From Gammaproteobacteria bacterium (lineage in GTDB: Bacteria > Pseudomonadota > Gammaproteobacteria > Steroidobacterales > Steroidobacteraceae), in assembly GCA_018970145.1 (NCBI GenBank), contig JAGWWY010000002.1, forward strand, positions 310,001-374,000: a DNA stretch of 64,000 nt, written 5' to 3'. The notes beneath the pieces are model-generated. The model saw nothing but the letters and a program-made list of their open reading frames with translations, did no database searches and was not told the origin of the DNA. Positions 36,968 through 56,647 of this stretch are shown one piece after another; position 1 is the first letter of the stretch, and every line of letters begins with the position of its first letter. The translations under genes were made by a program, and so were the position numbers.

Positions 36968-36984
36968 CGTGTCGCGAACTCAGG

Positions 36985-40533: not shown

Positions 40534-41352
40534 ATGGAATGGATCACCCTCTGGCCTCTGGCCCTCTTGTTGCTGGTAACCGGGCTGGTGGCCGGCCTCA
40601 TCGCAGGATTACTCGGCGTCGGCGGCGGCATCGTGCTCGTGCCCGTGCTCGATCTCGTGTTGCGTTATCTCGGGGTGCCGGCGGAGGGCTCCATGCACGT
40701 AGCCGTCGCTACGTCGCTCGCGACCATCATTCCGACCGCCATCGCCTCGAGCCGGACTCACGCCGCGCGTGATGGCATCGACTGGTCACTGGTCAAAGCG
40801 TGGTTACCCGGTCTACTGGTCGGCGGCCTGCTTGGCAGCGCGCTGGCCGCTCGCGCGACGGCGCAGGTTTTAGCGGGCGTGTTTGCCATTGTGGCGACGT
40901 TGGTCGCGTTGAAGATGGTGCTGCCGCTCGACCACTGGCGGCTGCGTGACACCGTGCCGCGCGGACTCGGCGGCAATCTCATCGCCACTCTCATCAGCAC
41001 GGTCTCAACCATGATGGGCATTGGCGGCGGAACGCTGTCGGTTCCCGTCATGACGCTGACCGGCAGCGCGATCCATCGCGCCGTCGGCACCGCCGCGTTT
41101 TTCGGGTTGGCGCTCGCCGTGCCCGGAACCATCGGCTATCTGCTGGCAGAACCACCGGTCGACATGCCCGGAACCACCGTAGGCCTCATCAGTTTATCGG
41201 CGCTGATCGCGATCGTGCCCACCTCGACCTGGATGGCGCCGATCGGCGCGCGTCTCGCTCATCGCCTCGATCGTCGACGCCTCTCGCAGGTCTTCGGCGT
41301 GTTCCTCTGTCTGGTTGCTGTTCGTATGCTGTTCAGGAGTCTCTCACCGTGA
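40534..41352 (+). CDS. TSUP/TauE-SafE family membrane transporter
   Basis: The 272-residue polytopic protein (about eight helices) has the twin glycine-rich half-repeats of the sulfite exporter TauE/SafE family (LIAGLLGVGGGIVLVPVLDL and STMMGIGGGTLSVPVMTL). It may export or import a small organosulfur or carboxylate anion. It heads a plus-strand operon: its stop overlaps the next gene as GTGA. It is divergent from thrA over 127 bases. Confidence 0.87.
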   Translation: MEWITLWPLALLLLVTGLVAGLIAGLLGVGGGIVLVPVLDLVLRYLGVPAEGSMHVAVATSLATIIPTAIASSRTHAARDGIDWSLVKAWLPGLLVGGLLGSALAARATAQVLAGVFAIVATLVALKMVLPLDHWRLRDTVPRGLGGNLIATLISTVSTMMGIGGGTLSVPVMTLTGSAIHRAVGTAAFFGLALAVPGTIGYLLAEPPVDMPGTTVGLISLSALIAIVPTSTWMAPIGARLAHRLDRRRLSQVFGVFLCLVAVRMLFRSLSP

Positions 41353-42356
41353 CCACCCACGCCATTTCTGGACCCTTCTTCGAGGACTTTCAGCGTGGCC
41401 TCGAATTCGATGCGCCGGCCGTAACCATAAACGCAGGCCACGCCGCATGGCATCAAGCGCTGTTCGCCGATCGATTGCGCATACCGCTCGACCATCACGC
41501 AAGCAGCGCGATCACCGGCGCGCCGGACGCCATGGTGCACCCGCTACTGGCGATCAACATCGCTATCGGTCAGTCGACATGGGCGTCACAGCGCGTGAAA
41601 GCCAATCTTTTTTATCGCGGCTTGATCCTGCACCGCAGCGTGCACTTGGGCGATACCCTCTACACCCGAACAAAGGTCGTGGGACTGCGCCAGAACAAAA
41701 CTCAAGCCAATCGAGCGGCAACGGGCATCGTGGCACTCGAGATGACGACGACGAATCAACACGGCGAGACGGTGCTCCACTTTTGGCGTTGCCCGATGAT
41801 TCCCTGTCGTGATGCGGCAGCGTGCACGGGTCATGACGATGATCTCGATCAAATCGGCGCTGCGGTGACGCCGGAGAAGGTGATCGCCGCACTACCCACG
41901 CACTGGAACCTTGCACCCGCAGAGCGCTGGCTGGGTTGGCGCCATAATGCACTGGCTATCGACGATCATGTTGTCGTCGAAGCGCGTGACACGGTGACAT
42001 CTGCGCCGGAACTCGTCCGCCTATCTTTGAACATGGCGATGGCACACACAGACTCGACGGTGTCCTATCTCGGTGAGCGACTCGTCTTTGGCGGACACAC
42101 GATCTTCACGTGCTTCGCGCAGATCACGCGTGCGCTGCCGAATCTGTTGACGCTGATCGCTTGGGAAAATTGTGACCACTTGGCGCCGGTGCTCGAAGGC
42201 GACTTGCTGCGAACGACCTTCGATATTCGCGAACGCGTTCCCGTACCGGAGGGCGGCGCCTTGCTGCGCATCACGACCCAATGCTACGCGGCCCGAGGTC
42301 TACCTGAGGCCGAAACGGCTGTACTCGATTGGACTTTTTGGGCGTGGAGCGCGTGA
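41349..42356 (+). CDS. Double-hotdog MaoC-like acyl-CoA hydratase
   Basis: The 335-residue protein has two hotdog halves. The first (about 1-155) contains FEDFQRGLEF and HPLLAINIAIGQST, with the helix and HRSVHLGDTLYTRTKV pattern of MaoC/FAS1-like dehydratases. The second (about 185-335) contains HTDSTVSYLGERLVFGGHTIF. It resembles mesaconyl-/2-methylfumaryl-CoA hydratases, so it probably adds water to an unsaturated acyl-CoA; the substrate is unknown. The GTG start at 41349 has AGGAG 9 bases upstream and overlaps the TSUP stop. Confidence 0.75.
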   Translation: MTTHAISGPFFEDFQRGLEFDAPAVTINAGHAAWHQALFADRLRIPLDHHASSAITGAPDAMVHPLLAINIAIGQSTWASQRVKANLFYRGLILHRSVHLGDTLYTRTKVVGLRQNKTQANRAATGIVALEMTTTNQHGETVLHFWRCPMIPCRDAAACTGHDDDLDQIGAAVTPEKVIAALPTHWNLAPAERWLGWRHNALAIDDHVVVEARDTVTSAPELVRLSLNMAMAHTDSTVSYLGERLVFGGHTIFTCFAQITRALPNLLTLIAWENCDHLAPVLEGDLLRTTFDIRERVPVPEGGALLRITTQCYAARGLPEAETAVLDWTFWAWSA

Positions 42357-42358
42357 GC

Positions 42359-43738
42359 ATGAGTCATCCCGATCGCGTCACCGCGAAACTCATCGACCAT
42401 GTCATCTCGCATCGTTACGAAGCCCTCTCACCGAGCGCCGTCACGGCGACGTCGACCTTTGTGCTTGATTCACTCGGCGTGGCCCTCGCCGGATCACGGG
42501 TGCCCCTAGTACCGGAGTTGATTGCACTCGCCCAAAGTTGGGGGCAGTCAAACGACTGCCGTGTTTGGGGGAGTGGACAGCGCGTTCCGGCCATCACGGC
42601 GGCGTTCGTCAACGGCTATCAAATCCACAACCAAGAATGGGACTGCGTGCATGAGCCGGCCGTCGTACATCCCATGGCGGTGGTGCTCGCGACCTTGCTC
42701 GCTTGGTCCGAGCAACAGGGTCGTATAGACGGTCGACGCTTCGTCAGCGGTTGCAACGTCGCCGTCGACGTCGCTACCACGATCGGCCGTGCCGCGCGCA
42801 ACCAACTGCGATTCTTCCGCCCGGCGATGTGTGGCGCGCTCGGGGCAACGGCTGGCATAGCCAATATGTTGAGCCTTGATAGCGAGACGACTCGTAGCGC
42901 GCTCGGTCTCTGCTACAGCCAGCTCTCGGGCACTATGCAAGCACATGTCGAAGGATCACCGATGCTGCCGTTGCAGATCGGCGTCAACACGCGCGCAGCG
43001 CTGCTGGCGATCGACTTGGCCGTTCGCGGCGTGTCGGGACCTCGCCATTTTCTAGAGGGTGATTTCGGTTATTTCGCCCTGTTCGACTCCGCATGGGATC
43101 CTGCGGTCTTCGAGCGGATCGGAACGCGCTCGGAGATGGCGCATTTGTCGCATAAACCCTTTCCAAGCGGACGTGCCACGCATGGGGGTATCGACGGCGC
43201 ACTGACGTTACAAGAGCAACTCGGCTTCGCGACAACCGATATCCAAGAAATTCGGGTGCATGCCCCACCGCTGGTCGTCCAACTGGTCGATCGGCCGGCG
43301 CACGCCGAGATGTTGCCCGCTTACGCACGGCTTTGTCTCCCGTATGTGGTAGCGACCGCCCTGCTCACGGGCGATGTCACCGTGGCCGATTTTGACCGCG
43401 AGAAACTCTGCGCTCCAGAAAGACTGGCCCTCGCCAGCCGCATCCGAGTGCAACGGGATACCAACCCGTCACTCAATGCTTTGGCTCCACAACGAGTCGA
43501 AGTGCAATTGTGCGGCGGGCGAATCGAAGAGTTACCCTTGCCCGCGGTCCTCGGCGCACCCGGAAGACCGCTGACGCGCGAGCGACATCTCGCCAAGTTT
43601 CAGCGGGCCGCCGCTGCCGGCCTTCAGCCTATGCGTCCAACATCGATCTCCAAAGTGATTCAACTGGTCGATGAACTACCCGCCATCACCGACATGACCC
43701 AACTGGTCGATGCGATGTTGTTCGAGGACGCGGCATGA
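42359..43738 (+). CDS. MmgE/PrpD family protein
   Basis: The 459-residue protein belongs to the MmgE/PrpD fold, which includes 2-methylcitrate dehydratase, cis-aconitate decarboxylase and iminodisuccinate epimerase. Visible family features are VLDSLGVALAGSRVPL, AAFVNGYQIHNQEWDCVHEPAVVHP and KPFPSGRATHGGIDGAL. ATG 42359 is chosen for a GGAG 9 bases upstream; a GTG at 42353 would overlap the hydratase stop. There is no methylcitrate synthase nearby, so it is probably not a propionate pathway gene. Confidence 0.82.
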   Translation: MSHPDRVTAKLIDHVISHRYEALSPSAVTATSTFVLDSLGVALAGSRVPLVPELIALAQSWGQSNDCRVWGSGQRVPAITAAFVNGYQIHNQEWDCVHEPAVVHPMAVVLATLLAWSEQQGRIDGRRFVSGCNVAVDVATTIGRAARNQLRFFRPAMCGALGATAGIANMLSLDSETTRSALGLCYSQLSGTMQAHVEGSPMLPLQIGVNTRAALLAIDLAVRGVSGPRHFLEGDFGYFALFDSAWDPAVFERIGTRSEMAHLSHKPFPSGRATHGGIDGALTLQEQLGFATTDIQEIRVHAPPLVVQLVDRPAHAEMLPAYARLCLPYVVATALLTGDVTVADFDREKLCAPERLALASRIRVQRDTNPSLNALAPQRVEVQLCGGRIEELPLPAVLGAPGRPLTRERHLAKFQRAAAAGLQPMRPTSISKVIQLVDELPAITDMTQLVDAMLFEDAA

Positions 43739-45144
43739 CTTACCCAAATTATTTTGAGTCGTTTGACTATGCGCAGATGCGCAGAGACTTTTCGCTTGGA
43801 ACCGACTTCAGCGACGACTTCGCCAAGCGCTCGCGCGACGAAATTCGCGCGCATCAAGATCGACTCTTCCGGCGCTGTATGCAACGCGCCTGGCAGATCC
43901 CCTTCTATCAGCGCCTGTGGGGCGCGCATGGCTTGACACCGCATGATGTCAAGGGACTCGACGATATAGCCAAGCTGCCGATCTTCGGCAAAGCCGAACT
44001 CATGAAGAGTCTCGCCGATCATCCGCCCTATGGGGATTATCACGGCTTCGACCGATGGGATGTCGAACAACGACCCGTCACCGTTATCCACACCACGAGT
44101 GGCACAACCGGGCGACCGCAGGTCGTGCTGTTCAGCCCCAAATCGCGCGAAGTGCAGGCGCTGCTCGTCGCGCGGATCTGGCGCATGCAGGGACTACGGT
44201 CGACCGATGTCATTCACTCCGTCTACGGACACGGCATGATCAACGGCGGGCATTTCGTCCGCGAGGCTGCCCTGCACTACACGAACTCGCTGTTTCTATC
44301 CGCAGGCACCGGTAAGGAAACGCGTTCTGTCACTCAAATCGAATTGATGCGCGACCTCAAAGTCACGGTGATCGTAGGCTTTGTCGATTACATCCGACAA
44401 CTCTCCGAAACCGCGCGCGAGATGGGGCTCGAACCAGGCCAAGACTTACCGATCCGCGCGATATTCGGTCACGTGGGACGCGAGTCGCGTAGCGCACTCT
44501 CACGCGCCTGGGGCGGTGCAGAAATCTTTGACTGGTATGGCGTCGCAGATACGGGCCCAATCGCCGCTGAAGGCCCCGATCGTGACGGCATGTACGTCAT
44601 GGAGGACGCCCAGTATTTGGAGCTCATCGACGAGGGGAGCGGACGAGCGGTCAGCGCCGAGGACGCCGGTGACATGGTGGTCACCTCGCTCTATCGCGAC
44701 GATGTCTATCCGCTGATTCGCTTCAACACCCACGATCTGTCGGCTTGGAAAAGCGGCACCTCCTCCCTCGGTTTTCAATTGCAGCGCACCGTCGGCGTAC
44801 TCGGACGTAGCGACAACATGGTCAAGCTTCGCGGTATCAACGTTTACCCACTCGCGCTTGCTGCGATCCTCAACGAACGCACCGAATTCGCAGGCGAATA
44901 TATTTGTCGGGCCCGCCGTGACGCTTCCGGTCGCGACAATCTCTGCGTCATCATTGAGACACGTGCTGGCGCTCACCCGGACCCCGAGATTGCACGGGGA
45001 TTCGCCAGTCTGCTCAGCCGACGGGTCGGCGTCGAAATCGAAGTGGAACTCGTCGCACCGGGCGCAACAGCAGCGCTCACCCAGATCGAAAGCCGGCAAA
45101 AACCCATTCGATTGATCGACGAGCGACCCAAGGCGAGCGCCTGA
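43735..45144 (+). CDS. PaaK-like AMP-forming CoA ligase
   Basis: The 469-residue adenylate-forming enzyme of the phenylacetate-CoA ligase type has the ATP loop TTSGTTGRPQVV (about 118-129), DWYGVADTGP in the adenine-binding position, a TRYNTHDL-like RFNTHDL and the C-terminal hinge VLGRSDNMVKLRGINVYP. It would activate an aromatic or other carboxylate as its CoA thioester, feeding the upstream hydratase (inference). The ATG at 43735 overlaps the MmgE/PrpD stop (ATGA). Confidence 0.85.
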   Translation: MTYPNYFESFDYAQMRRDFSLGTDFSDDFAKRSRDEIRAHQDRLFRRCMQRAWQIPFYQRLWGAHGLTPHDVKGLDDIAKLPIFGKAELMKSLADHPPYGDYHGFDRWDVEQRPVTVIHTTSGTTGRPQVVLFSPKSREVQALLVARIWRMQGLRSTDVIHSVYGHGMINGGHFVREAALHYTNSLFLSAGTGKETRSVTQIELMRDLKVTVIVGFVDYIRQLSETAREMGLEPGQDLPIRAIFGHVGRESRSALSRAWGGAEIFDWYGVADTGPIAAEGPDRDGMYVMEDAQYLELIDEGSGRAVSAEDAGDMVVTSLYRDDVYPLIRFNTHDLSAWKSGTSSLGFQLQRTVGVLGRSDNMVKLRGINVYPLALAAILNERTEFAGEYICRARRDASGRDNLCVIIETRAGAHPDPEIARGFASLLSRRVGVEIEVELVAPGATAALTQIESRQKPIRLIDERPKASA

Positions 45145-45148
45145 GACC

Positions 45149-46402
45149 ATGCCGTTTGCGAACGCCGTCGAGCGGCTCGAGGCTGCTATCCAAAAAGTCG
45201 AGTGCGATGATCTCAACGCCTGGTGTCATCTCGATCTCGAGGCGGCACGGCAAGCGGCGCGCGAGAGTGTACAGCGCTTAGCTAACGCGCAGAGTCTGAG
45301 CACCATCGACGGCTGCATTGTTGGCATAAAGGCCAACATCGCCGTTGCCGGTTGGCCTTGGGCAGGCGGCTTGCGCAGCCGCCACGACGTGCACGCCGAG
45401 AGCGACGCCGCCGTGATCAAAGACTTGCGAGCAGCCGGTGCGATCTTGCTCGGACAAACGACGATGGATGCCGGTGCACTCGGCGCGAGCGGACGCAGTC
45501 TGCAAGGTGCGATTCGACATCCGCTCGATCCGACACTGTCGGTCGGCGGCTCGAGCGGCGGCTCGGCCGCGGCCGTTGCCGCAGGACACTGCGATGCGGC
45601 CCTTGGTAGCGACACGATCGGCTCGGTCCGCATTCCCGCCGCACTGTGCGGCATCGTCGGCGTCAAGCCATCGCCCGCTCGCTTGAGCCTCAAAGGGGTG
45701 CTCCCAGTGCACGAGGACTTCGATCATCTTGGGCCGCTGACGCGCGAGGTCACACTGGCGCGTGGCTTGCTCGAAGTGCTCGGCGCACTCGACAAGTCGA
45801 CCGCGCCGCCAGCCGGCAAATTACGCTGCGCAGTGATGACTTCGTTCGGCGATGTCGCGTTGGATGCAGGCGTCGAATCCGCTTTCCATCGCGCGATCAA
45901 TCGTTATGCCAATCGATACGCCGCCCCAGAACGACTCGAACCACTATCAGAGAACAACGAGCCTCTGTCGCTACGCAAGGTACGCCGTGCAATCTTTGCT
46001 CTGTGTGAACATCGCATGTGGCTTGCCCATCGCGAGCATCTCGAGACGAACCCTGACGATTTCGACGAACCGCTACGCGGAATGCTCGAGTTCGGTGGCC
46101 AACTAGACGTTACCAAGCTGGGTCGCTATCGCACGACGGTCGGCGAATTTGCGATGCGCTGGCACGAGATGATGCGAGGGTTCGACATCGTCTTGCTACC
46201 GACCTCTCCGGTGCCAGCCTTCGCCCACACGCTGCCGACACCTGATTCTTTGGCAGATCTCACCGTCATTGCGACGGCCACGAGCTCACCAGCTGCCACC
46301 ATCCCCATCGCAAACGAAGGTCTGCCGGCTGGGCTCCAAATTATTGGACGGCCGGGCCACGACGAACTCGTCATGGCATTTGCCGATGCCTTGTCAGCCT
46401 GA
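45149..46402 (+). CDS. Amidase signature family hydrolase
   Basis: The 417-residue enzyme hydrolyses an amide, probably a small one. The Ser-cisSer-Lys machinery is visible: Lys in GCIVGIKANIAVAGWP (about residue 58), the serine-rich VGGSSGGSAAAVAAGHCD, and the nucleophile loop SDTIGSVRIPA, where most members read TDTGGSIRIPA. The Ile for Gly just before the nucleophilic Ser is unusual. It starts 4 bases after the ligase and its end overlaps the convergent PuuE-like gene by 9 bases. Confidence 0.87.
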   Translation: MPFANAVERLEAAIQKVECDDLNAWCHLDLEAARQAARESVQRLANAQSLSTIDGCIVGIKANIAVAGWPWAGGLRSRHDVHAESDAAVIKDLRAAGAILLGQTTMDAGALGASGRSLQGAIRHPLDPTLSVGGSSGGSAAAVAAGHCDAALGSDTIGSVRIPAALCGIVGVKPSPARLSLKGVLPVHEDFDHLGPLTREVTLARGLLEVLGALDKSTAPPAGKLRCAVMTSFGDVALDAGVESAFHRAINRYANRYAAPERLEPLSENNEPLSLRKVRRAIFALCEHRMWLAHREHLETNPDDFDEPLRGMLEFGGQLDVTKLGRYRTTVGEFAMRWHEMMRGFDIVLLPTSPVPAFAHTLPTPDSLADLTVIATATSSPAATIPIANEGLPAGLQIIGRPGHDELVMAFADALSA

Positions 46403-47242
46403 CTGAATGCTGAGGTAGTGCGCGGCGATATCGCGACGCGTCGCGATCCAAACGCCCTCCGCGCGACTCACGTGCTGCAGGAATCGATCAAGCGCGACGA
46501 TGCGTCCGGGACGGCCGATGATGCGCAAATGCACGCCGAGCGACATCATCCGCGGGCGCCCGACGGACTCCGCGAGCAGCCAGTCGAAGGTATCCCGAGC
46601 GTAGATTAGCCAATCGCTTGGGGTGAGCGCCGGCGCATTCCACATTTTCATGTCGTTCGAATCGAGCGCATAGGGCAGCACCACCATTGGTTTGTCCAAC
46701 GAGCGATCCATGAAAGGCTCGTCGCGACTGAAATCGTCCATGTGATAGAGGTAACCCTCTTCACTCAACAAACGACGCGTTTCAGCAGTGTGCAGATATC
46801 GTGAAAGCCAGCCAACGGGTCGAGTCCCGGTAGTCGTGGCGATGCTGTTGGTGGCCTTGCGAATGAAGTCGCGCTCGACGTCTTCACTCATGCCGAGTTG
46901 GTGCGCCCAACGATAACCGTGCGCGCACACTTCGTGTCCGGCACCGGCGATACCGCGAGCCACTTGCGGCGCGCGCTCGAGTGCCACGGCGGCAGCCGTG
47001 AAGGTCGCGGAAAATCCGTAACGATCAAGCAAACCTAGTACGCGGGGTGCACCCTCATTGATTCCGTACGCGTAGTTCGACTCGTTGCCGAAATTGCGCA
47101 CTGGCTTCTTCAAAGTAATCCCGAGCTCATCGACAGGCTCCGGACCGCGATCGCCGTCCTCGATGTTGAATTCGGCGCCTTCTTCCACATTCACGACGAG
47201 CGAGAGCGCGAGACGCGCACCACCGGGCCAAGCGTAACTCAT
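46394..47242 (-). CDS. PuuE-like polysaccharide deacetylase family hydrolase
   Basis: The 282-residue protein belongs to the NodB-fold branch that includes PuuE allantoinase and cyclic imidases rather than sugar deacetylases. Features are VVNVEEGAEFNIEDGD near the N-terminus, YAYGINEGAPRVLGLLD, HEVCAHGYRWAHQ and a C-terminal GVHLRIIGRPGR. A cyclic amide or imide is therefore a likelier substrate than a glycan (inference). It follows the SDR gene by 2 bases and faces the amidase. Confidence 0.8.
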   Translation of the reverse strand: MSYAWPGGARLALSLVVNVEEGAEFNIEDGDRGPEPVDELGITLKKPVRNFGNESNYAYGINEGAPRVLGLLDRYGFSATFTAAAVALERAPQVARGIAGAGHEVCAHGYRWAHQLGMSEDVERDFIRKATNSIATTTGTRPVGWLSRYLHTAETRRLLSEEGYLYHMDDFSRDEPFMDRSLDKPMVVLPYALDSNDMKMWNAPALTPSDWLIYARDTFDWLLAESVGRPRMMSLGVHLRIIGRPGRIVALDRFLQHVSRAEGVWIATRRDIAAHYLSIQSG

Positions 47243-47244
47243 GT

Positions 47245-48087
47245 CTAGTGGTACTCCTCGCCGCCCGAAACGTTCATCGCCTCACCGGTGATATACGCAG
47301 CCTCACTGGACGCCAGAAAAGCGCAGGCCTTGGCAACATCTTCCTGCAAACCGGGTCGCCCGAGCGGAATGCGCGCACGCATGTCTGCGAGATATTTCTC
47401 CTCACTGCGGCCAGTCGCTGCACTGAAGAACTGATTCTGCCAAGCGCCAAGACCCGTGGTGACATGGTTCGGACAAATTGTGTTGACGGTGATGCCCTGT
47501 CCACCGAGCTCGATCGCCGCCGAGCGAGTGAGACCCACCATGCCGTGCTTTGAAGATACATAGGCTGATGCGAACGGGAACCCCGACTTTGACGCTTGGC
47601 TACCGATGTTGATGATACGACCGCCCTGCCCTTGGGCGATGAACTGTACGGCGGCATGCTTGATACCGAAAAATGCCCCTCGCAGATTGACACCGAGCAC
47701 GGCGTCCCAATCCGCCTGAGTCATCTCGATGATCGGCTTCATCAGATAACCGATACCCGCGTTGTTCACCATGATGTCGAGGCGTCCATAGTGCGCCACC
47801 GTCTTTGCGACGAGTTCGGCGACCTGCGTCTCTTCGAGCACATCGCACACGAGACCGATCGCCTCGCCGCCGGCCGCACGGATCTCCGTAACGATCTGCT
47901 GCATTTCCTTCGATGAGCCAATGGCGGTCTCTGGCATTTCAGCGCCGCGCGCGGCACCGATATCGCTTACGACCACCTTGCAACCCTCGGCCGCCAAACG
48001 CCTGACCATCGCTTCGCCCAAGCCCTTGGGACGACCCGAGCCTGTGACGATCGCCACCTTGCCGCGCAGATCCGGATACACGCTCAT
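47245..48087 (-). CDS. Short-chain dehydrogenase/reductase
   Basis: The 280-residue Rossmann-fold oxidoreductase has a slightly extended nucleotide loop (VTGSGRPKGLGEA, about 14-26), NNAGIGYL, catalytic Ser near 164 and YVSSK (Tyr/Lys pair), and a C-terminal NVSGGEEYH. It oxidises or reduces an unknown alcohol/ketone. The ATG at 48087 has a strong AGGAG upstream. It is transcribed with the PuuE-like gene. Confidence 0.9.
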   Translation of the reverse strand: MSVYPDLRGKVAIVTGSGRPKGLGEAMVRRLAAEGCKVVVSDIGAARGAEMPETAIGSSKEMQQIVTEIRAAGGEAIGLVCDVLEETQVAELVAKTVAHYGRLDIMVNNAGIGYLMKPIIEMTQADWDAVLGVNLRGAFFGIKHAAVQFIAQGQGGRIINIGSQASKSGFPFASAYVSSKHGMVGLTRSAAIELGGQGITVNTICPNHVTTGLGAWQNQFFSAATGRSEEKYLADMRARIPLGRPGLQEDVAKACAFLASSEAAYITGEAMNVSGGEEYH

Positions 48088-48128
48088 CAGAACTCCTAGT
48101 GAGAACTTCAGACTGCTAACATCATCGC

Positions 48129-48899
48129 ATGAGCGAACTGCTGACGGACATAGCTCCCCCGATGGGTCGAGTCACGTTGAACCGACCCGACAAGCGCAAC
48201 GCACTGAACTTCGCGATGTGGATGCAGCTCACTGACATCGCCGCCCAACTGTTGCGAGATGACCGCCTGCGAGTCGTCCTGTTGACAGGCGCGGGTGACG
48301 AGGCCTTCAGCGCGGGTGCAGACATCCTCGAGATGCGCCAAAGCCTGACTGATCCGCCGAAGATGCAGGCGATGCAACAGGCAGTGCTGGATGCGCAGGT
48401 GGCGTGGGAGCGCATTCCGATGCCGACGATCGCCATGATCCGCGGCGCCTGCACCGGCGGAGGCTGCGGGCTCGCCTTGAGTTGCGATCTGCGCATCGCG
48501 ACGCCGGAGGCCTTTTTCGCCATCCCACCTGCCAAGCTCGGCCTCGCGTACAGCCTGGCTGACACCAAACGACTGTACGATCTCGTCGGCCCGTCACGGT
48601 CGAAGGAAATCCTGTACACCGGCAGGCGTATCGATGCGACGGAGGCGCTGCGCTTAGGGTTGATCAACCAGATCGTCCAACCAGATGAACTCGAGCCCTA
48701 TACGCAGGCACTGGCCAGTGAAATCGCAGGCAACGCGCCAAACTCGGTGCGCGCTGCCAAAGCGGTGGTCAACCTGATCAGCTCGGGCACCGATGCCGAA
48801 ACCCCCGTCTCGAAGCGCTATTACGACGAGAGTTTTTCATCGCTCGAGTTTCTGGAAGGGGCGCGCGCGTTCATGGAGAAGCGAGCACCGAAATTCTAA
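48129..48899 (+). CDS. Enoyl-CoA hydratase/isomerase family protein
   Basis: The 256-residue crotonase-fold protein has the oxyanion-hole stretches AFSAGADILEM and IRGACTGGGCGLALSCDLRIA. The general-acid/base glutamates of hydratases are not both obvious, so it could be an isomerase, hydrolase or C-C lyase. It is divergent from the SDR (41-base gap) and ends 7 bases before the convergent alpha/beta hydrolase gene. It probably acts on CoA esters made by the nearby ligase (inference). Confidence 0.87.
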   Translation: MSELLTDIAPPMGRVTLNRPDKRNALNFAMWMQLTDIAAQLLRDDRLRVVLLTGAGDEAFSAGADILEMRQSLTDPPKMQAMQQAVLDAQVAWERIPMPTIAMIRGACTGGGCGLALSCDLRIATPEAFFAIPPAKLGLAYSLADTKRLYDLVGPSRSKEILYTGRRIDATEALRLGLINQIVQPDELEPYTQALASEIAGNAPNSVRAAKAVVNLISSGTDAETPVSKRYYDESFSSLEFLEGARAFMEKRAPKF

Positions 48900-48906
48900 G
48901 TTCGAC

Positions 48907-49881
48907 TTATTCTTTGAGCTCGTCGAGCTTGTCGTGCTCATCGAGATAACGACGTATCACCGCTGCACTCTCAAGCGGAGCTTCCTGCACCAGCATATGC
49001 CCAATCCCGGGCAGCACCTCGAGACGAACTTCCGGTGAGTTCTGCAGCAAGGCTTGCGTCTCGTACGCCAGCGACAAAGGCACGCGCTTGTTCCGCTCGC
49101 CCCAGATCAGCAATACCGGCACTTTGACCGCGCGGATTTTCTCCTCAACGCCGCCCGAGACGTACTGCCGCAGCAACTCGATCATCGCCAAGCGATTACC
49201 TTCACGGCGCCACATCGAATACCACTCATCGACGACGGCATCACTGACCCGAGCAGGATCACCGTAATCGTTTTCGAGCATGAAGCGAGTGAAGGCTGGC
49301 GGCGCGACGTAGGCAATCACGTTCGCCGCTTTTGGAATATCGGCGCCCTGCGTCCGACCACGAACACGCTTCTCCAAAGACCCGGGACTGATCAAGACCA
49401 AGCGCTCGACTCGATCCGGATGATCGGCCGTATACCGCATCGCCACCGTACCCCCGATCGAAGTGCCGGCAAGAGTGAACCGCTCGAGACCGCGCGAGTT
49501 GATGAAGGATTCGATGAGGTATTGGATGCGCTCGAGCGTGTAGTTGCCGCTAGGTTCCGGTCCGGTCAGACCATGCGCAGGCAAATCGACCCGAATGACA
49601 CGATAGCCATCCTTGAGCGCGCTGACCCACGGTTCCCACATGAACAAACTCGAATAGTTGGCATGCAGCAGGACCACGACTGGCCCTTCGCCCTCGTCCC
49701 GATAATGCAGTCGCACCCCATCGATTTCGACGAATCGCGAGCGCTCATCCGCCCAACGAGCCTCGACCTCGGCGGCAGGCTGATCGCGATAGATCCACGC
49801 CGCCGCTGCAGCGATCACGACGGTTGCCGATACGACGAACACCACCGTCCCGAGTAACCATTGAAGTAATTTGTGGATCAT
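48907..49881 (-). CDS. Membrane-anchored alpha/beta hydrolase
   Basis: The 324-residue protein has an N-terminal membrane anchor (about 5-27) and an alpha/beta-hydrolase domain with HANYSS near the oxyanion hole, nucleophile elbow GTSIGG, acid in VLLIWGERNKRVP and a C-terminal catalytic His in PGIGHML. It resembles ester or meta-cleavage-product hydrolases. ATG 49881 (MIHKLLQWLLG) starts just before the anchor; upstream in-frame codons to 49956 run into the MFS gene and are rejected. Confidence 0.86.
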   Translation of the reverse strand: MIHKLLQWLLGTVVFVVSATVVIAAAAAWIYRDQPAAEVEARWADERSRFVEIDGVRLHYRDEGEGPVVVLLHANYSSLFMWEPWVSALKDGYRVIRVDLPAHGLTGPEPSGNYTLERIQYLIESFINSRGLERFTLAGTSIGGTVAMRYTADHPDRVERLVLISPGSLEKRVRGRTQGADIPKAANVIAYVAPPAFTRFMLENDYGDPARVSDAVVDEWYSMWRREGNRLAMIELLRQYVSGGVEEKIRAVKVPVLLIWGERNKRVPLSLAYETQALLQNSPEVRLEVLPGIGHMLVQEAPLESAAVIRRYLDEHDKLDELKE

Positions 49882-49905
49882 GCCGAGCACCTCACCTCGG
49901 GCAGA

Positions 49906-49911
49906 TATACT
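49906..49911 (+). promoter_or_regulatory. Candidate -10 box for the MFS gene
   Basis: TATACT lies in the 67-base gap between the divergent hydrolase and MFS genes, 37 bases before the MFS start. A GGGGGA Shine-Dalgarno sits about 7 bases before that GTG. No clear -35 is seen. Confidence 0.35.
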
Positions 49912-49948
49912 CCAAGCACTCGAATAAAAACCAACGGGGGACGACCGC

Positions 49949-51244
49949 GTGACCACATCTCAAACGTCGACCTACGCGAACCCACTCTATGCGTGGTTCG
50001 TGGTCCTGGTGCTGGCGCTGGCCAACTGCGTGTCCTTCATCGACCGATTGATTCTGTCCTTGCTCGTGCAGCCGATCAAAGCGGATCTACAGATCTCCGA
50101 CACCGCGTTCAGCCTGCTTGCCGGTGCCGCTTTCGCGATCTTCTATTGCGGCATGGGGCTCGTCATCGCACGCTGGGCTGACCGTTACAGCCGTAAGTGG
50201 ATCATCACCTCAGGCATCGTGCTCTGGTGCAGCATGACGACTTTGGCGGGAACAGCGCGCTCCTACGCGCAGCTCTTTCTCTACCGCGTTGGTGTCGGCG
50301 TTGGCGAAGCCACGCTTTCGCCGTCTGCCTACTCCATGCTGGCAGGCTATTTCCCACCTCAACGACTCTCGCTTGCGATCGGCGTCTTTAGTGCGGGTGT
50401 CACGGCCGGCACCGGGCTCGCTTACTTGCTTGGCGGCGTCACGATTGCCTGGGTGATGTCGCAAGGCACGGTCGCCTTACCGGTCATCGGCGACTTGTCG
50501 GGATGGCGACTCGTGATGGTCATCATCGGCTTGCTCGGCCTGCCCGTCGCTTTGCTAATGCTCTTCGTCAAAGAGCCCCCACGCGCTCACCAAGGATCAC
50601 CGGCCACGTTGCAAGAGACGCGCGCCCACTTCAAAGCCAACCTCGCTCGCTACGGCTACGTATTCGCAGGCTACGGCACGACGGCCGTTACCGCCTTCGC
50701 GGTGATGACGTGGACGCCAGCGCTGTATCAGCGCCAGTACGGCGCGACGCCTGCTGAGTCGGCATTGACTATCGGCACCGTGGCACTCGTCGGCGGCTTA
50801 CTCGGTGCCTTCGCAGGCGGTTGGTGGTCCGATCATCTCGAATCGAGAGGCGATCACCGGGCCAAGTTGCGCGTCTTGTTCTACTGTGGACTCGGCCTAG
50901 TGTTACCGTCGATACTCGCTCCCTTCATGCCGACGATGCAGGCGCACGCCGCGCTGATCTTCTTCACGTTTTTCTTTGGCTCGGCGGCTACCGGACCTGC
51001 AGGCGCCTACGTGCAAGCGATCACCCCTGATCGTATGCGAGCGCAGTTCGGCGCGGCCTACCAATTGTCACTGGTGCTGGTCGGCGCGACGCTCGGGCCG
51101 TTCGCCGTGGGTTTTTCCACGGACTTCATCTTCGGTGATGAAAGCAAAATCGGCTATTCGATGGCGCTCGTCTCAGCGCTGGCCAACCCGATCGCCGCCT
51201 ATCTGCTGTGGCAAGCCTTCAAGCGGGCACGTGCACCGCTTTGA
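49949..51244 (+). CDS. MFS transporter, Spinster-like
   Basis: The 431-residue polytopic protein has about 12 helices and the loop-2/3 MFS motif (ARWADRYSRKW, between helices 2 and 3), then FLYRVGVGVGEATLSPSAYS of helix 4, as in Spinster-like permeases common near TonB-dependent receptor genes. It may import the substrate of the surrounding catabolic genes (inference). The GTG start has a strong Shine-Dalgarno. Its 3' end overlaps the aldehyde dehydrogenase gene by 26 bases. Confidence 0.88.
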   Translation: MTTSQTSTYANPLYAWFVVLVLALANCVSFIDRLILSLLVQPIKADLQISDTAFSLLAGAAFAIFYCGMGLVIARWADRYSRKWIITSGIVLWCSMTTLAGTARSYAQLFLYRVGVGVGEATLSPSAYSMLAGYFPPQRLSLAIGVFSAGVTAGTGLAYLLGGVTIAWVMSQGTVALPVIGDLSGWRLVMVIIGLLGLPVALLMLFVKEPPRAHQGSPATLQETRAHFKANLARYGYVFAGYGTTAVTAFAVMTWTPALYQRQYGATPAESALTIGTVALVGGLLGAFAGGWWSDHLESRGDHRAKLRVLFYCGLGLVLPSILAPFMPTMQAHAALIFFTFFFGSAATGPAGAYVQAITPDRMRAQFGAAYQLSLVLVGATLGPFAVGFSTDFIFGDESKIGYSMALVSALANPIAAYLLWQAFKRARAPL

Positions 51245-52667
51245 GGCGCGAATAGCTGTATAGCTCCGCCAAACACTCCTCGCCACCGAGACCGCTGTCT
51301 TTCCACCCACCGAACGGCGTGCCGACGAAGTGCTGACCTGCGGTGTTGAGCCAGACGGTGCCTGATTCGATCGCGCGCGTCATGCGCAATCCGGTGGTGA
51401 GATCGCGCGTCCACACGGCCGCCGTCAATCCATAGGGCGAGTCGTTGGCGAGTTCGACGACTTCGGATTCATCGCGCCAGCGTTGCGCACAGACGATAGG
51501 ACCAAAGATTTCCTCGCGTACCACTCGCATGCTGCGGGTCACATCCGCGTATAGCGTGGGCTCGAGCCAATAGCCACCCGCAAACGCCTCACCCGGTGGT
51601 CGGCGACCCCCGGTGACCAGTCGAGCGCCCTGCACGGTCGCGTCGGTGATGAAGTCCTGCATCCGTTCGAACTGTTTCGAGGAATTGAGTGGCCCCATCT
51701 CAGAGGCGGGATCCAGCGGATCGCCGAGGCGAAGCGCCCGCATTCGCATCGCAACCCGTTCGACGATTTCGTCATGGACGTCGGCATGTAACAGCAAACG
51801 ACTGGTCGAGCCGCACGACTGACCGGCCCACGAAAAATTCATACCAGCGACCGCCATTTCGACGACGCGATCCAAGTCTGCATCGGGAAAAACGATGAAC
51901 GGATTTTTACCGCCGAGCTCCAAACTCACATGTTTGACAGCCGACTCGGCGGCCGCGCGTTGGATGGCAAGTCCCGTTGCCACCGACCCAGTGAAGCCGA
52001 TACGACGCACAAGCGGATGCCGAACCAAGGCGTCACCCGCCGGCGCGCCTTGGCCGTGCACAATATTCACGAGACCTCGTGGCAAGGTGTCACGGACCAA
52101 CTCGCCTAGCACCGAGCCCGACAACGGACTCGTTTCAGGCGTTTTCACCACCACTGCGTTGCCGGCCATCAATGGTGCAGCCAGGTGCGCCGCGGCGAAC
52201 ATGAAGGGATGATTGAAAGGCACGATCCGCGCAACGACGCCATACGGCTCGTGAACGGTGTAATGCAGACCGCGCGCCGTGGCCGGAATGGTCTCGCCTT
52301 TCAACTCGCTACCGAGCCCGGCAAAGTATTCGAGATAACCCGCGGCAATCTCGACGTCGGCGCGCAACTTGCCGATGGTGTTACCGGTATCGCGCGCCTC
52401 GAGCGTAAGGATCTCATCGCCTCGAGCGCGAATGGCAGCCGCCAGGGCTTTCAACCGATGGGCTCGTTCCCAGACCGACAAGCCACCCCAATCCCGTTGC
52501 GCTCGCATCGCAGACTGCACAGCCTGGTCCACATCGAGCGCGGTCGCCGCAGGCACACGCCCGAGCGGCTTGAGCGTCGCAGGCTCGTGACTGTCGATCC
52601 AGTCGCCCGCTCGGCCTCCTTCGCCAAGCGTGAGCTCTCCATCGATCAGATGCCGACCTTCAAACAC
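51219..52667 (-). CDS. NAD(P)-dependent aldehyde dehydrogenase
   Basis: The 482-residue enzyme has the ALDH-family FTGSVATGLAIQ cofactor loop, general base Glu in SLELGGKNPF, catalytic Cys in WAGQSCGSTSR and the C-terminal AGQHFVGTPFGGWKDSGLGGE. It oxidises an unknown aldehyde to the acid, which could supply the CoA ligase of this region. It lies downstream of the TonB-receptor terminator on the same strand, so it likely has its own promoter. Confidence 0.92.
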   Translation of the reverse strand: MFEGRHLIDGELTLGEGGRAGDWIDSHEPATLKPLGRVPAATALDVDQAVQSAMRAQRDWGGLSVWERAHRLKALAAAIRARGDEILTLEARDTGNTIGKLRADVEIAAGYLEYFAGLGSELKGETIPATARGLHYTVHEPYGVVARIVPFNHPFMFAAAHLAAPLMAGNAVVVKTPETSPLSGSVLGELVRDTLPRGLVNIVHGQGAPAGDALVRHPLVRRIGFTGSVATGLAIQRAAAESAVKHVSLELGGKNPFIVFPDADLDRVVEMAVAGMNFSWAGQSCGSTSRLLLHADVHDEIVERVAMRMRALRLGDPLDPASEMGPLNSSKQFERMQDFITDATVQGARLVTGGRRPPGEAFAGGYWLEPTLYADVTRSMRVVREEIFGPIVCAQRWRDESEVVELANDSPYGLTAAVWTRDLTTGLRMTRAIESGTVWLNTAGQHFVGTPFGGWKDSGLGGEECLAELYSYSRLKAVHVPA

Positions 52668-52779: not shown

Positions 52780-55569
52780 TCAGCGACCGCCGAAGCGATA
52801 CGCGAAGCGAAACCCGACGATACGCGGATCCGGTAACGCGACACCCGAGGTATTCGCCGGCGAGAAGTTGCTGGGGTCCGCCAGCGACTGAGCCACATCA
52901 CCCGGGTTTGAGCTGCCCGCCTGCACGGTATCGTCATCCGTGATGTTATTCGCGAAGATCTGCAGGTCCCAACGGTCGGATGTCATACCGATACGAACGT
53001 TACCGATGGTGAAGGCATCAAGTTCGACTAGGTTGTAAAAGTCGAGGTAGCGCTTCGATTGCTTCTGCACGTCGCCTTCGACAAAGAAGCGCACGCCCGT
53101 TGCACCGAAGAGATCACCTATCGGACGTGACCAACGTGCCATGCCGACCAGCGAATGCTTGGGCGCACGCTCGAGCTTGCGACCCTTGAGATTGTGGAAG
53201 CACACGCGGGAGTTAGCCAGCGTATCGGTCTTGCGATTGCAACTGCCCACGCGTACCGCATCGGTCGGCGAGGCAGAGGTGAACGGGAAATCAATGAACT
53301 CGGTATCGAGGTACGCGTAATTGAGCCCGAATAACAGACTCTCGTTCGGCGCCCACTGCGTATCGAGCTCAAGGCCCCGAACTTCCGCCTTACCGGCGTT
53401 CAGCAAGCGACCGACCAAGATGCCCGAGGGCGTCACAAGCTGGGCACCGACCTGCTTGTCATCGTACTTGATGAAGAACACGCCCGGGTTGAAGCGCACT
53501 CGACCATCAGCCGACTGAATCTTCGCGCCGAACTCGTATTCTTGGATCTTCTCATCCTTGAACGAGAATTCGTCGTAGGCACCGTCATAATCCGCGTCCT
53601 GCCACGATCCGGCCGTGACCGTCGAGACACCACCGGGCTTCACGCCCTTCGCATAGGTCAGGTAAAGCAACATGTCGTCAGCCGGACGAAACTCGATCGT
53701 CGCGCGCGGCGTAAAGTAGCTGTGCTCCGTCTCGAGCGTGACTGGCACGCCCGGAGCCTGTTGTACGCCTGAGCCCGGCACCCCCGGTGGCGCGAACGGG
53801 TTAAAGAACGGATAGAGGTATCCGACCGACGGGAAGCCGATCTGGAAGCCCGGGAAGCTCGGATCTTGGCACTTCGTTACCGGGCCACCCGGGAACGATG
53901 CCGCGTCGAGCGTCGGCGAGCAATTCACACCAGCGACCGTCTCGGTCTCCTGACCGTAGCGCCCCTCGACACTGACACGCCAACGCTCGTTGAGATCGTA
54001 CTCGATCAAACCGAAGAATGAATTATGTTCGATATCACGCGCGTTCACGCGCGGGATCGGATTGGTCATCAATCCAAGTACCTGGTTCGCCGAGCGATTT
54101 TGACAACTTGGGCCGATCGCCGGTTGACCCGGGAAGAACGTGTTTGGCGGAATCGGCGGCAAACAGAAAATATTGATCGAGCGAGTCGTTTGAGCCGCCT
54201 TTTCCTGCCAGTACAGATAGCCCAACATGAAGTTTGCGGGACCGTCGAAATCCGAACGGAAGCGCAACTCTTGGCTGAACTGCTCCGTCTCGTTCGCGTT
54301 GTCGAACTTCGCCGCGCGCAACGAGGTATCGACCCCGTTGACGACACCGGAATCGAAGTCGCCGTCCTCTTCGAAGGTGAAGTTCGCATCGGTGATACCC
54401 GTCAGCGAGGTCACCGTGCCGAAATCGAAGTCCCAGTTGAGCACCGCCGAGAAACGCAGGATCTCACGTGTGCTGCCGACGTAGTCCTTGCCAGTCAATG
54501 GATTGGGATCCAACTTGACCTTGAGCTTGTCCGCTGACGGAATGAGACCCGCCGACGAATAGACGTGGTTACTACCGAAGAACGTACCCGGATAGGCGGG
54601 GTTACCGGAACCGGGTGGCAGGGTGAACCCCGGCGGCAACACCGTTGTACCCGAATACACTCGACCACTCCCCGCCGGACAACTTCCACGCACGGCAGCA
54701 ACCACGGCGCCCGTGCCGACGGTCAAGCATTCCGCGCCCGTCGTCGGCCTTACCGACACGAGTGAAATCGGTACCTGCGCCGTTGCCGATTGACCAAACT
54801 CGTCGTCGGTGTATTCCGCGCGGAACTTGGCGCTGAAGCTCTCATTCGGCTCCCACTTGGCAGTCAGAGCCAAGCCCCAACCGTCGCCGTCACCGACCTC
54901 GCCGCCGGTCACTGAATTTTTGTATATGCCGTCCTGCTTCCACTGCACGGCATTTACGCGAATACCGACGGTATCACTCAGCGGACCGCTCCAGGAACCC
55001 GTCACATCTTGTCGACCATACTCCGCGAACGAGGCGCGAATATCACCCTCGGCGACGGTCGCCGGATCCTTGGTGACGTACTGCACGGCACCCGCGAAGG
55101 CGCTGCGACCATACAACGCCGACTGCGGACCCTTGACGATTTCGATGGCCTGCAGATCGAGCAATTTATTGGTCGCTAGCAACGAACCACCGCCGAACTG
55201 AATACTCTCGCTGGAGGTATCGATACCATCGACGAGTACGGCCACATTGACACGGCCGCGCGTCGGCGAGAGACCGCGAATCGAAATGCGGTTGTCGGTT
55301 GCTGAATATCCTTTGTCATAGATCAACGACGCATCGAGCCGGGCGATATCCTCGACGTCGGAAATACCCATCTTCTCGATGTCGCCGGACGTGATGGCCG
55401 TGATGGACATAGAGACATCCTGCAGATTCTCCTCGCGCTTGCGCGCCGTCACGACGACCTCTTCGAGACCGACTGCGTCGTTCGCGACCAAAGGCATCGC
55501 CATCACGGTGGACATGCCGCCAATGACGAGAGCAACCGACCGCTGCGCCGGCTTGAGCGATTTACTCAT
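52780..55569 (-). CDS. TonB-dependent outer-membrane receptor
   Basis: The 929-residue protein has a signal peptide (about 1-29), a TonB-box-like LEEVVVTARKREENLQDV (about 35-52), a plug domain (SISIRGLSPTRG-like RISIRGLSP, VDGIDTS, EIVKGPQSALYGRSAFAG) and a large beta-barrel. Its relatives import substrates larger than about 600 Da or scarce organics; nothing shows it is a siderophore receptor. The last residues are YRFGGR, without the usual terminal aromatic. It is followed by a strong terminator. Cys-containing loops (for example FCLPPIPPN) lie on the extracellular side. Confidence 0.92.
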   Translation of the reverse strand: MSKSLKPAQRSVALVIGGMSTVMAMPLVANDAVGLEEVVVTARKREENLQDVSMSITAITSGDIEKMGISDVEDIARLDASLIYDKGYSATDNRISIRGLSPTRGRVNVAVLVDGIDTSSESIQFGGGSLLATNKLLDLQAIEIVKGPQSALYGRSAFAGAVQYVTKDPATVAEGDIRASFAEYGRQDVTGSWSGPLSDTVGIRVNAVQWKQDGIYKNSVTGGEVGDGDGWGLALTAKWEPNESFSAKFRAEYTDDEFGQSATAQVPISLVSVRPTTGAECLTVGTGAVVAAVRGSCPAGSGRVYSGTTVLPPGFTLPPGSGNPAYPGTFFGSNHVYSSAGLIPSADKLKVKLDPNPLTGKDYVGSTREILRFSAVLNWDFDFGTVTSLTGITDANFTFEEDGDFDSGVVNGVDTSLRAAKFDNANETEQFSQELRFRSDFDGPANFMLGYLYWQEKAAQTTRSINIFCLPPIPPNTFFPGQPAIGPSCQNRSANQVLGLMTNPIPRVNARDIEHNSFFGLIEYDLNERWRVSVEGRYGQETETVAGVNCSPTLDAASFPGGPVTKCQDPSFPGFQIGFPSVGYLYPFFNPFAPPGVPGSGVQQAPGVPVTLETEHSYFTPRATIEFRPADDMLLYLTYAKGVKPGGVSTVTAGSWQDADYDGAYDEFSFKDEKIQEYEFGAKIQSADGRVRFNPGVFFIKYDDKQVGAQLVTPSGILVGRLLNAGKAEVRGLELDTQWAPNESLLFGLNYAYLDTEFIDFPFTSASPTDAVRVGSCNRKTDTLANSRVCFHNLKGRKLERAPKHSLVGMARWSRPIGDLFGATGVRFFVEGDVQKQSKRYLDFYNLVELDAFTIGNVRIGMTSDRWDLQIFANNITDDDTVQAGSSNPGDVAQSLADPSNFSPANTSGVALPDPRIVGFRFAYRFGGR

Positions 55570-55771: not shown

Positions 55772-56647
55772 CTAGCGTTGCACCGGTTTGGCTGACACCG
55801 GTTTGGCTGACATGCGTTGCGGGAACTCTCTTTCCGCCCGCTCGCGATAGGCATGCGGCAATTGATCGACGTGCTGCAGTTTCGCGCCCGAGGCGTGCCA
55901 GATCAGATGCCCGGGCTGATCCCTCATATCCATCCACTTCAGCCAATTCATGAAGACCACCGAGGAGAAGCTGGCTGCAACCGAGTTTTGGCGTACATCC
56001 AACACGGCATCGCGTTGCGCGAAAATGGTCTGTCGTTGACCGTGCATCGCCGGCATACCCGGTGGATAAACCGTCTGATGCTGCAGCCAAAGATGCGTGC
56101 CCATCTGGTGCCACTGCAACTGCAATGGCTTCCTGACCGGCTCACCGAGCGGTGTTCCATCCAACCGAACCGGCCAAATTCCCTCTCTGGTATACGCAAA
56201 TCCGAGGTTGCCACCCTGCACCGCGGGCTTCACAGCCTCGCGTTTGCCCGTATACGGATTGGCGAACTCATACAAAAATTCGCCGGTCTCGAAATCACGA
56301 AAGAAGGTCACCGTATGCCCGCCGAGCTGGAAATCGTCACCGCGATGAGAAAACCAATAGACCTCCATCCCCTCGAATCGCATCAGGGGTCTGGGAGTTT
56401 CCCCCTCGCCTCGCACACCGAAAATGACACCAGTGAACCACCAGCGCACGTCCTCCTCCAACAAACTGCCTTGCATCCGCACGAGATTCCGCAGCTGCTC
56501 CGGCGAGCGCCAGGTTTCCGGGGCCATGGCGCCCGTTGCCAGCGCACTCGAGTCTGCCGAAGTCGACTCGACACCCACACCCGCCCCTAAGATTAGACTG
56601 CCGGCCAACCAACGGCGTCGACTGATCGAGCGTGACCTTGAAATCAC
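55772..56647 (-). CDS. DUF1838 family protein, exported
   Basis: The 291-residue protein has an N-terminal Tat-like signal (SRRRWLAGS then a hydrophobic run) and the DUF1838 domain (WWFTGVIFGVRGEGETPRPLMRFEGMEV in part, HTVTFFRDFETGEFL, WHQMGTHLW). Family function is unknown, but it recurs beside TonB-receptor and Rieske genes in catabolic bacteria. The GTG start at 56647 overlaps the upstream gene stop (GTGA). The C-terminus carries a duplicated SAKPV from a 15-base tandem repeat. Confidence 0.8.
   Translation of the reverse strand: MISRSRSISRRRWLAGSLILGAGVGVESTSADSSALATGAMAPETWRSPEQLRNLVRMQGSLLEEDVRWWFTGVIFGVRGEGETPRPLMRFEGMEVYWFSHRGDDFQLGGHTVTFFRDFETGEFLYEFANPYTGKREAVKPAVQGGNLGFAYTREGIWPVRLDGTPLGEPVRKPLQLQWHQMGTHLWLQHQTVYPPGMPAMHGQRQTIFAQRDAVLDVRQNSVAASFSSVVFMNWLKWMDMRDQPGHLIWHASGAKLQHVDQLPHAYRERAEREFPQRMSAKPVSAKPVQR
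55781..55810. repeat. Perfect 15-base tandem duplication
   Basis: CACCGGTTTGGCTGA occurs twice back to back at the 3' end of the DUF1838 gene. It keeps the frame and gives SAKPV-SAKPV just before the last two residues, as expected of replication slippage. Confidence 0.95.

Follow-up and report, generated by a model that had tools for sequence, protein, structure and literature searches.

A conserved proteobacterial gene block whose enzyme families support a proposed route of cyclic imide opening and branched dicarboxyl-CoA breakdown

We analysed a 64,000-nucleotide window (C2:310001-374000) in the 2.43-Mb genome (G000; 95% complete, 23 contigs) of a gammaproteobacterium of the Steroidobacteraceae, whose relatives are lake dwellers. 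At ~40.5-58.6 kb, this window carries a genuine, conserved and uncharacterised catabolic gene block. The chemistry of its gene families supports the opening of a cyclic imide, followed by breakdown of a branched dicarboxyl-CoA. An original prediction for 40534-49881 had named nine genes, the first five as a tightly coupled operon, and proposed a possibly undescribed CoA-dependent catabolic pathway with amide cleavage. All nine genes, reaching to 49956, were found as intact open frames where predicted, and Pfam and NCBIfam placed them in the expected families (Table 1). On the plus strand, the genes from TauE through the double-hotdog hydratase (HotD) and PrpD to PaaK overlap by 4, 28 and 4 bp, with a 4-bp gap to the amidase gene. 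The genes for the PuuE-like protein and the short-chain dehydrogenase/reductase (SDR) are separated by 2 bp, and those for the amidase and the PuuE-like protein converge with a 9-bp overlap. The block end at 49881 was placed too early. The genes for the MFS carrier, the aldehyde dehydrogenase (ALDH), the TonB receptor, DUF1838, a 175-amino-acid protein (U175) and the Rieske enzyme stay adjoining in relatives (L105, L107, L112), and the conserved block ends with the Rieske gene at 58562. Its genes are intact and under purifying selection: measured pairwise against a single relative with 78-98% protein identity, the 15 genes TauE through Rieske gave dN/dS values of 0.02-0.19, and the MobA-like gene that comes next gave 0.31.

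With slightly less than even confidence, we read the block as a catabolic pathway for a nitrogen heterocycle that passes through a cyclic imide. The data show the gene content, the intact frames, the catalytic positions of the amidase, the joint presence and joint absence of the ligase and PuuE-like genes, and the residue changes in PrpD; from these we infer the reactions, their order and the substrate class. The TonB receptor and the MFS carrier would serve in uptake, and the Rieske enzyme would oxygenate the ring. The SDR would convert a hydroxylactam to the cyclic imide, which the PuuE-like enzyme would open by hydrolysis to a half-amide. The amidase would then release ammonia, leaving a 2-substituted (branched) 1,4-dicarboxylate, for which the PaaK-like ligase would form the CoA thioester. 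The divergent PrpD may act at C2 of the dicarboxylate or its half-amide, via an enolate. HotD would hydrate a branched unsaturated dicarboxyl-CoA, and the crotonase-fold enzyme of the enoyl-CoA hydratase family (ECH) would hydrate or split the acyl-CoA. Oxidation of an aldehyde product by the ALDH and transport of an acid or anion by the TauE-type carrier would complete the set. The carbon of the opened nitrogen-containing ring is probably fed into central metabolism.

A search for the same gene set in other genomes, suggested with the original prediction, found the genes recurring together, so the refuting case named there, genes that never co-occur elsewhere, does not apply. A scan of genome contigs with the window PrpD yielded 264 relatives, of which the best 80 loci were kept; locus counts refer to these. 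All 11 proteins from TauE to ALDH were found in seven of the 80 (L025, L032, L033, L035, L039, L046, L085), and several further loci were cut by contig ends. A PaaK homologue (at least 45% identity) directly followed PrpD in 46 of the 74 loci with room for it (at least 1.4 kb after PrpD), and the amidase came next in 43/43 loci with at least 1.3 kb left. PuuE and SDR homologues, counted at 50% identity or more, were present in 21 and 23 loci, respectively. Wherever both occurred (14/14 loci), they were immediate neighbours, at most 200 bp apart. This adjacency, and the shared operon of both genes in distant taxa, speak for a shared step.

The co-occurrence was also seen in a class sample of 321 Gammaproteobacteria genomes, evenly sampled and drawn independently of PrpD, in which G339 and G418 appear identical to G163 and G175. 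PaaK (E<=1e-110) and PuuE (E<=1e-70) matches were found in the identical three genomes, the host, G220 and G339, lying on separate contigs in the latter two. The chance of such an identical pair among 320 genomes is 2e-5. Among 13 genomes of the host genus and family, both genes were present in eight and both absent in five. The several strands, short convergent units and high gene density of the block would also fit a chance neighbourhood of unrelated ordinary genes. With the gene order kept elsewhere, PaaK and PuuE co-occurring on separate contigs, and their shared absence, we consider this extremely unlikely. At the gene-family level, the proposed CoA-dependent catabolic set with amide cleavage is supported and conserved in other genomes.

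PrpD relatives were also detected in public metagenome-assembled genomes (MAGs) labelled Klebsiella pneumoniae and Bordetella parapertussis (L025, L037, L082). The label of L025 looks wrong, because the whole block is present and its PrpD is ~90% identical. In one relative, the PaaK frame (G118:C82:19713-21122) had a single in-frame TAA, so that either the copy is broken or the assembly is at fault.

Several findings weigh against the imide reading. A second lineage of four of the 80 loci (L031, L037, L038, L056) retained HotD-PrpD-SDR-ECH without PaaK and PuuE, two of them (L038, L056) together with the Rieske gene; these genes are therefore useful without imide opening or this ligase. In G100 the amidase gene lies beside PrpD, with neither PaaK nor PuuE. 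The class-wide co-occurrence of PaaK and PuuE rests on two genomes besides the host. The PuuE-like protein resembles the allantoinase PuuE more closely than 3qbu, which is imidase-related (Table 1), and for this reason we claim no orthology to an imidase. The SDR matches 224 NCBIfam families, so its family assignment says little. The window block is without a CitE-type lyase, an acyl-CoA dehydrogenase and a CoA-transferase, and a search of the whole host genome gave one CitE homologue (E<=1e-8) at C2:427974, ~60 kb downstream. This homologue, whose neighbours are unrelated genes, among them a photolyase-like one, was judged generic. MaoC30, ACAD27 and CaiB proteins were sought in selected stretches of the host genome, with ACAD-like matches of just 26-28%.

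The second lineage also fits another explanation, in which the compound broken down is larger, either nitrogen-free or aromatic/isoprenoid, and enters via the TonB receptor. Rieske, SDR, HotD, PrpD and ECH would then form the core, and PuuE, amidase and ligase an add-on for amide-linked side groups. The best curated model for the Rieske protein, 4beta-methylsterol monooxygenase (89 bits, cut-off 600), points the same way. Steroid degradation, considered in view of the Steroidobacteraceae relatives, the Rieske enzyme and the TonB receptor, was retained only as part of this explanation. We regard this explanation as rather unlikely, given that PuuE is the immediate neighbour of the SDR in all 14 loci holding both and shares one operon with it in distant taxa.

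If the block opens a cyclic imide, the ring is most likely five-membered, of the succinimide/maleimide type. The reason is that a C4 1,4-dicarboxylate is common to all characterised substrates of MmgE/PrpD enzymes (PMC12290011), and the imide that opens to one is a succinimide or maleimide. By the same comparison, a six-membered pyridine or piperidinone ring (nicotinate-like), opened via glutarimide as in the fungal hxn route, is clearly improbable. A six-membered ring would agree with the characterised SDR-imidase-amidase trio, which is of the six-ring type (PMC9304392), and with CaiB10 of distant carriers, which resembles succinate-glutarate CoA-transferase (533 bits, cut-off 750). In the nicotinate route of Aspergillus nidulans described there, HxnW (an SDR) converts a 6-hydroxy lactam to the imide, HxnM, a PuuE-related hydrolase, opens it, and the amidase-signature hydrolase HxnN hydrolyses the half-amide. 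The window encodes the same three enzyme types in one unit at 45149-48087, a likeness by enzyme type that does not indicate the substrate. Unlike the block, hxn is fungal and acts on a six-membered ring, and the other hxn enzymes named there (PMC9304392) differ from those of the block.

Judged by its residues, the window PrpD is a distinct MmgE/PrpD subfamily. We compared 65 PrpD and 28 companion PrpD2 sequences from the loci with methylsuccinate isomerase (Msi), matching positions by MAFFT, a further alignment and near-equal spacing. The Msi residues given in PMC12290011 are His88, Glu91, His102, His152, Lys202, Lys266 and the catalytic Tyr148. In the window PrpD, H100, E103, H114 and K276 match His88, Glu91, the catalytic His102 and Lys266, with the same residue in 63, 64, 64 and 65 of the 65 sequences; H114 is at the catalytic His position and K276 at that of the enolate Lys. 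Three positions are replaced: Leu160 takes the place of Tyr148, the second base (Leu, Met or Ile in 62/65), Arg164 that of His152 (65/65) and Leu213 that of Lys202 (64/65). With these changes the window PrpD falls outside the (S)-(R)-methylsuccinate isomerases, and two of the three replaced residues are reported as conserved across the MmgE/PrpD family (PMC12290011). PrpD2 retained the Tyr, His and Lys in 28/28 sequences, with Asn at the His88 position in 28/28. Because these residues are retained in PrpD2 and replaced in PrpD, PrpD2 looks like a two-base epimerase and the window PrpD does not. The latter may work with a single base through an enolate, and its substrate is perhaps a half-amide.

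A role as 2-methylcitrate dehydratase in the methylcitrate cycle was rejected, as foreseen: the window PrpD scored 38, 31 and 22 bits against NCBIfam cut-offs of 575, 950 and 458. The claim that methylcitrate genes are absent held for the locus but not for the genome, where a prpD-like gene (779 bits, below the cut-off of 950) is directly followed by prpB (366 bits, above the cut-off of 354) at G000:C1:174867-175595 (L001). Among solved structures, iminodisuccinate epimerase and cis-aconitate decarboxylase (PDB 2hp0, 6r6u) come closest to the window PrpD; they have the catalytic His position in common with it, and differ in several active-site positions that are replaced in its subfamily. Among them are the positions aligned to His159, Lys207 and His277 of cis-aconitate decarboxylase, which we take to be part of the active site. 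Cis-aconitate decarboxylation was rejected on the grounds that several active-site positions are replaced and fixed in the PrpD subfamily. The position of His103 (PMC12290011) is retained as H114.

PMC12290011 also describes the itaconate/methylsuccinate cluster ict-ich-ccl-mcd-msi, in which the MmgE/PrpD protein is the (S)-(R)-methylsuccinate isomerase beside a CoA-transferase, a hydratase, a lyase and a methylsuccinyl-CoA dehydrogenase. Like this cluster, the block has an MmgE/PrpD gene beside CoA activation and a hydratase; of the five genes, the window block has only hydratase-like and PrpD-like counterparts. Unlike it, the block uses a ligase, lacks the CoA-transferase, acyl-CoA dehydrogenase and lyase, has a PrpD without the isomerase Tyr, His and Lys, and adds the amidase, PuuE-like, SDR, Rieske and DUF1838 genes. 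Distant carriers, including Alteromonadales, Stenotrophomonas/Lysobacter, Parvularcula, Henriciella, Roseomonas and others, are nearer to the itaconate/methylsuccinate cluster, with CaiB, acyl-CoA dehydrogenase, MaoC and mostly CitE as the same enzyme types. Their PrpD-PaaK-amidase genes are often preceded by PrpD2 and, in part of the loci, followed by a CaiB CoA-transferase. Where the region was seen, their PuuE-SDR operon carried a REDY/HapK-like protein (PF11639), two CaiB, an acyl-CoA dehydrogenase, MaoC and mostly CitE. Also linked were hydrolases of the isochorismatase and nitrilase types, two more PuuE-like proteins, aconitase-type proteins and flavoproteins, a methyltransferase-like protein accompanied by a small partner, and DUF1838. 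One Shewanella contig had six carbon-nitrogen hydrolases in the cluster region (L044, L122); this points towards a substrate that is rich in nitrogen or holds several imides.

The block echoes both the hxn and the itaconate/methylsuccinate routes and belongs to neither. Searches of an open-access library gave no published description of this gene set, subscription papers lying outside their scope. The label of an undescribed pathway rests on these searches and concerns the gene set as a whole; parts of its chemistry are characterised (PMC9304392, PMC12290011). The cluster recurs across several proteobacterial orders, and the same searches gave no pathway name for it. Its enzymes are now named and its proposed substrate class, the cyclic imides, is concrete enough for tests. 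It would add a new MmgE/PrpD subfamily, with three isomerase residues replaced, and would give the fungal trio of SDR, imidase and amidase a parallel in bacteria.

We also weighed a biosynthetic or tailoring function. Methyltransferase-like and REDY/HapK-like (PF11639) proteins are linked to the cluster in relatives, one antibiotic-cluster paper reportedly mentions DUF1838, and the linked family c35 weakly matches VioE (Z 9.7). No polyketide synthase or nonribosomal peptide synthetase gene was seen among the annotated proteins, although no dedicated search for such genes was made. The TonB receptor, MFS carrier, ALDH and CoA ligase, together with CitE, CaiB and acyl-CoA dehydrogenase in relatives, point to breakdown, and a biosynthetic cluster is very unlikely. 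The c35 proteins (~245 amino acids; L053 6317-7048, also L044, L055, L091, L101, L103) had no match in Pfam and NCBIfam searches. Their predicted structure (mean pLDDT 82) is a barrel like DUF1849/DUF1089 (6ntr, Z 17.4, 3.0 A over 208), a modelled resemblance that names no function.

Pyrrole- or bilin-derived imides are testable, though unproven, candidate substrates, suggested by genes of the CpeT and DUF1838 families that accompany related clusters. In the extended form of this idea, the wider cluster, with the block as one version of it, would mineralise tetrapyrrole (chlorophyll/bilin) breakdown products: pyrrole-derived hydroxylactams would be converted to maleimide/succinimide by the SDR, opened by the PuuE-like enzyme, freed of nitrogen by amidases, and broken down as branched dicarboxyl-CoA esters. 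Barrels of the CpeT, DUF3598 and DUF1838 families would handle the pigment. PrpD would act on the half-amide, which would explain the change of one carboxylate-binding Lys to Leu. We consider this extended form, the boldest reading, improbable. If the substrate is indeed a pigment-derived imide, the cluster would be relevant to what becomes of chlorophyll breakdown products, a question called largely open in a paper on plants and herbivores (PMC7318184).

The linked CpeT/CpcT-family (bilin-lyase) protein matched PF06206 (4e-36), and in the PDB the chromophore lyase CRL (2.6e-11) and the phycocyanobilin lyase CpcT (3.2e-10). It was found in 11 of 26 named carriers. In G152, G153, G154, G156 and G172 the CaiB-to-SDR operon contains or adjoins it, and in G155, G174 and G175 it lies in the neighbourhood of the cluster. 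CpeT was present in 7/17 carriers taken as Gammaproteobacteria (one is labelled only 'Proteobacteria') versus 1/319 genomes of the class sample, from which G000 and G418 had been taken out (Fisher 1.7e-9, kinship ignored). Two carriers, G220 and G339, were still part of this background; G339 is probably the same genome as G163, one of the 17. After moving both, the counts were 7/18 versus 1/317 (2.8e-9, kinship ignored). Six of the seven CpeT carriers belong to or lie near the Alteromonadales, an order from which no genomes lacking the cluster were sampled. Among the searched genomes of the host family, CpeT was found in 11 of 12 with a close PrpD versus 7 of 23 others (4 of the 23 with a distant PrpD). 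The host CpeT lies away from the block, at C10:11998.

DUF1838 was encoded in 21/26 carriers versus 0/14 control genomes. In 15 of these 21 it lies at most 40 kb from PrpD; contigs were matched by length or through the locus itself, except for G170 and G173, where the contig number alone was used, and the 15 include G166, which has 28 copies. In the class sample it occurred in 7/321 genomes, including G220 and G339, two of the seven matches being short fragments (Fisher 2.9e-4). The host genome had seven listed matches. A DUF3598-type protein (PF12204, 3e-5) recurred in six of the cluster regions examined. The predicted DUF1838 barrel (mean pLDDT 75) gave low-quality Foldseek matches. With VIA-align it reached Z 7.1-8.9 to entries that include nitrobindin, CpeS and DUF3598 (rmsd 3.2-4.1 over 119-145), which we take to be calycin-type, tied with outer-membrane barrels.

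Three observations count against a pigment substrate. CpeT was found neither in the window nor in G220, G339, G115 and G123, of which G115 and G123 carry the full distant-type cluster. The Rieske protein matched PF00355 and PF19112 (VanA_C) only; pheophorbide oxygenase belongs to another family, PF08417. No tetrapyrrole ring-opening enzyme was identified, heme oxygenase and bilin reductase families not having been searched for.

A Rhodospirillaceae alphaproteobacterial MAG from a deep lake (G166, the genome of L083) had 28 DUF1838 and 11 CpeT-family matches. Near its CpeT genes were a Rieske gene (L152) and tandem genes (L155) that by eye we take to be tannase-like. At G000:C9:102051-102767 (L161 8286-10813) in the host genome, a methyltransferase-like gene lies together with that of its small partner and a full-length gene for DUF1838, with 28%, 32% and 50% identity to the linked versions.

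At the level of single enzymes, several block proteins fall below curated cut-offs. HotD scored 41 bits for RipB/Ich (NCBIfam, cut-off 340) and 20.4 for MC_hydratase (Pfam, cut-off 26.5). The ligase reached 171.5 bits for TIGR02155 (cut-off 646.3), which places it outside the phenylacetate-CoA ligases, and phenylacetate degradation was rejected. It belongs to the same family as PaaK and 2-hydroxyisobutyryl-CoA synthetase (6hdw) and is about equally distant from both. The PuuE-like protein has its fold family in common with the PuuE allantoinase (3cl6) and about half the curated score (233 bits for TIGR03212, cut-off 424.6). It thus lies outside the PuuE allantoinases, and allantoin degradation was rejected. 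The amidase has intact K61, S135/S136 and S159, presumably the Ser-Ser-Lys triad, conserved in at least 97% of 35 sequences.

Table 1 Genes of the conserved block, with coordinates in the window.
Feature	Coordinates	Strand	Evidence
TSUP/TauE-type membrane transporter	40534..41352	+	PF01925 E=3.6e-46; dN/dS 0.11; opens plus-strand operon
Double-hotdog hydratase (HotD)	41349..42356	+	PDB 2bi0 Rv0216 E=7e-78; 8hgn beta-methylmalyl-CoA dehydratase 8e-23
MmgE/PrpD	42329..43738	+	PF03972 6.3e-52; nearest PDB cis-aconitate decarboxylase 5e-29, iminodisuccinate (IDS) epimerase 2e-25
PaaK-like acid-CoA ligase	43735..45144	+	PDB PaaK 5e-42; 2-hydroxyisobutyryl-CoA synthetase 1e-39
Amidase-signature hydrolase	45149..46402	+	PF01425 2.9e-69
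PuuE-like hydrolase, predicted cyclic-imide hydrolase	46394..47242	-	PDB PuuE 2e-61; 3qbu 6e-17
SDR dehydrogenase, predicted hydroxylactam to imide oxidation	47245..48087	-	PF13561 2.2e-57
Crotonase-fold enoyl-CoA hydratase family protein (ECH), predicted hydration or retro-aldol cleavage	48129..48899	+	PF00378 4.2e-52
Alpha/beta hydrolase	48907..49956	-	PF00561 2.6e-25
MFS transporter	49949..51244	+	PF07690 3.3e-42
Aldehyde dehydrogenase (ALDH)	51219..52667	-	PF00171 1.6e-148
TonB-dependent outer-membrane receptor	52780..55569	-	PF00593 5e-33; dN/dS 0.024
DUF1838 protein, divergent copy, weak match	55772..56647	-	PF08894 1e-16
Conserved 175-aa protein U175, without Pfam family	56644..57171	-	95% identical in relative; dN/dS 0.09
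Rieske oxygenase, alpha subunit type	57378..58562	+	PF00355 1.6e-24; PF19112 8.2e-9

Upstream of the block, 35651-40484 holds what we take, by sequence inspection, to be threonine-synthesis genes, and Tad-type secretion genes lie downstream. The MobA-like NTP transferase gene (58399-59190) adjoins the Rieske gene, likewise in relatives, and no molybdoenzyme was seen in the block. Elsewhere in the window, at 30898-32489, adjacent genes encode Oxidored_molyb and Ferric_reduct proteins, presumably an MsrP-MsrQ-like pair.

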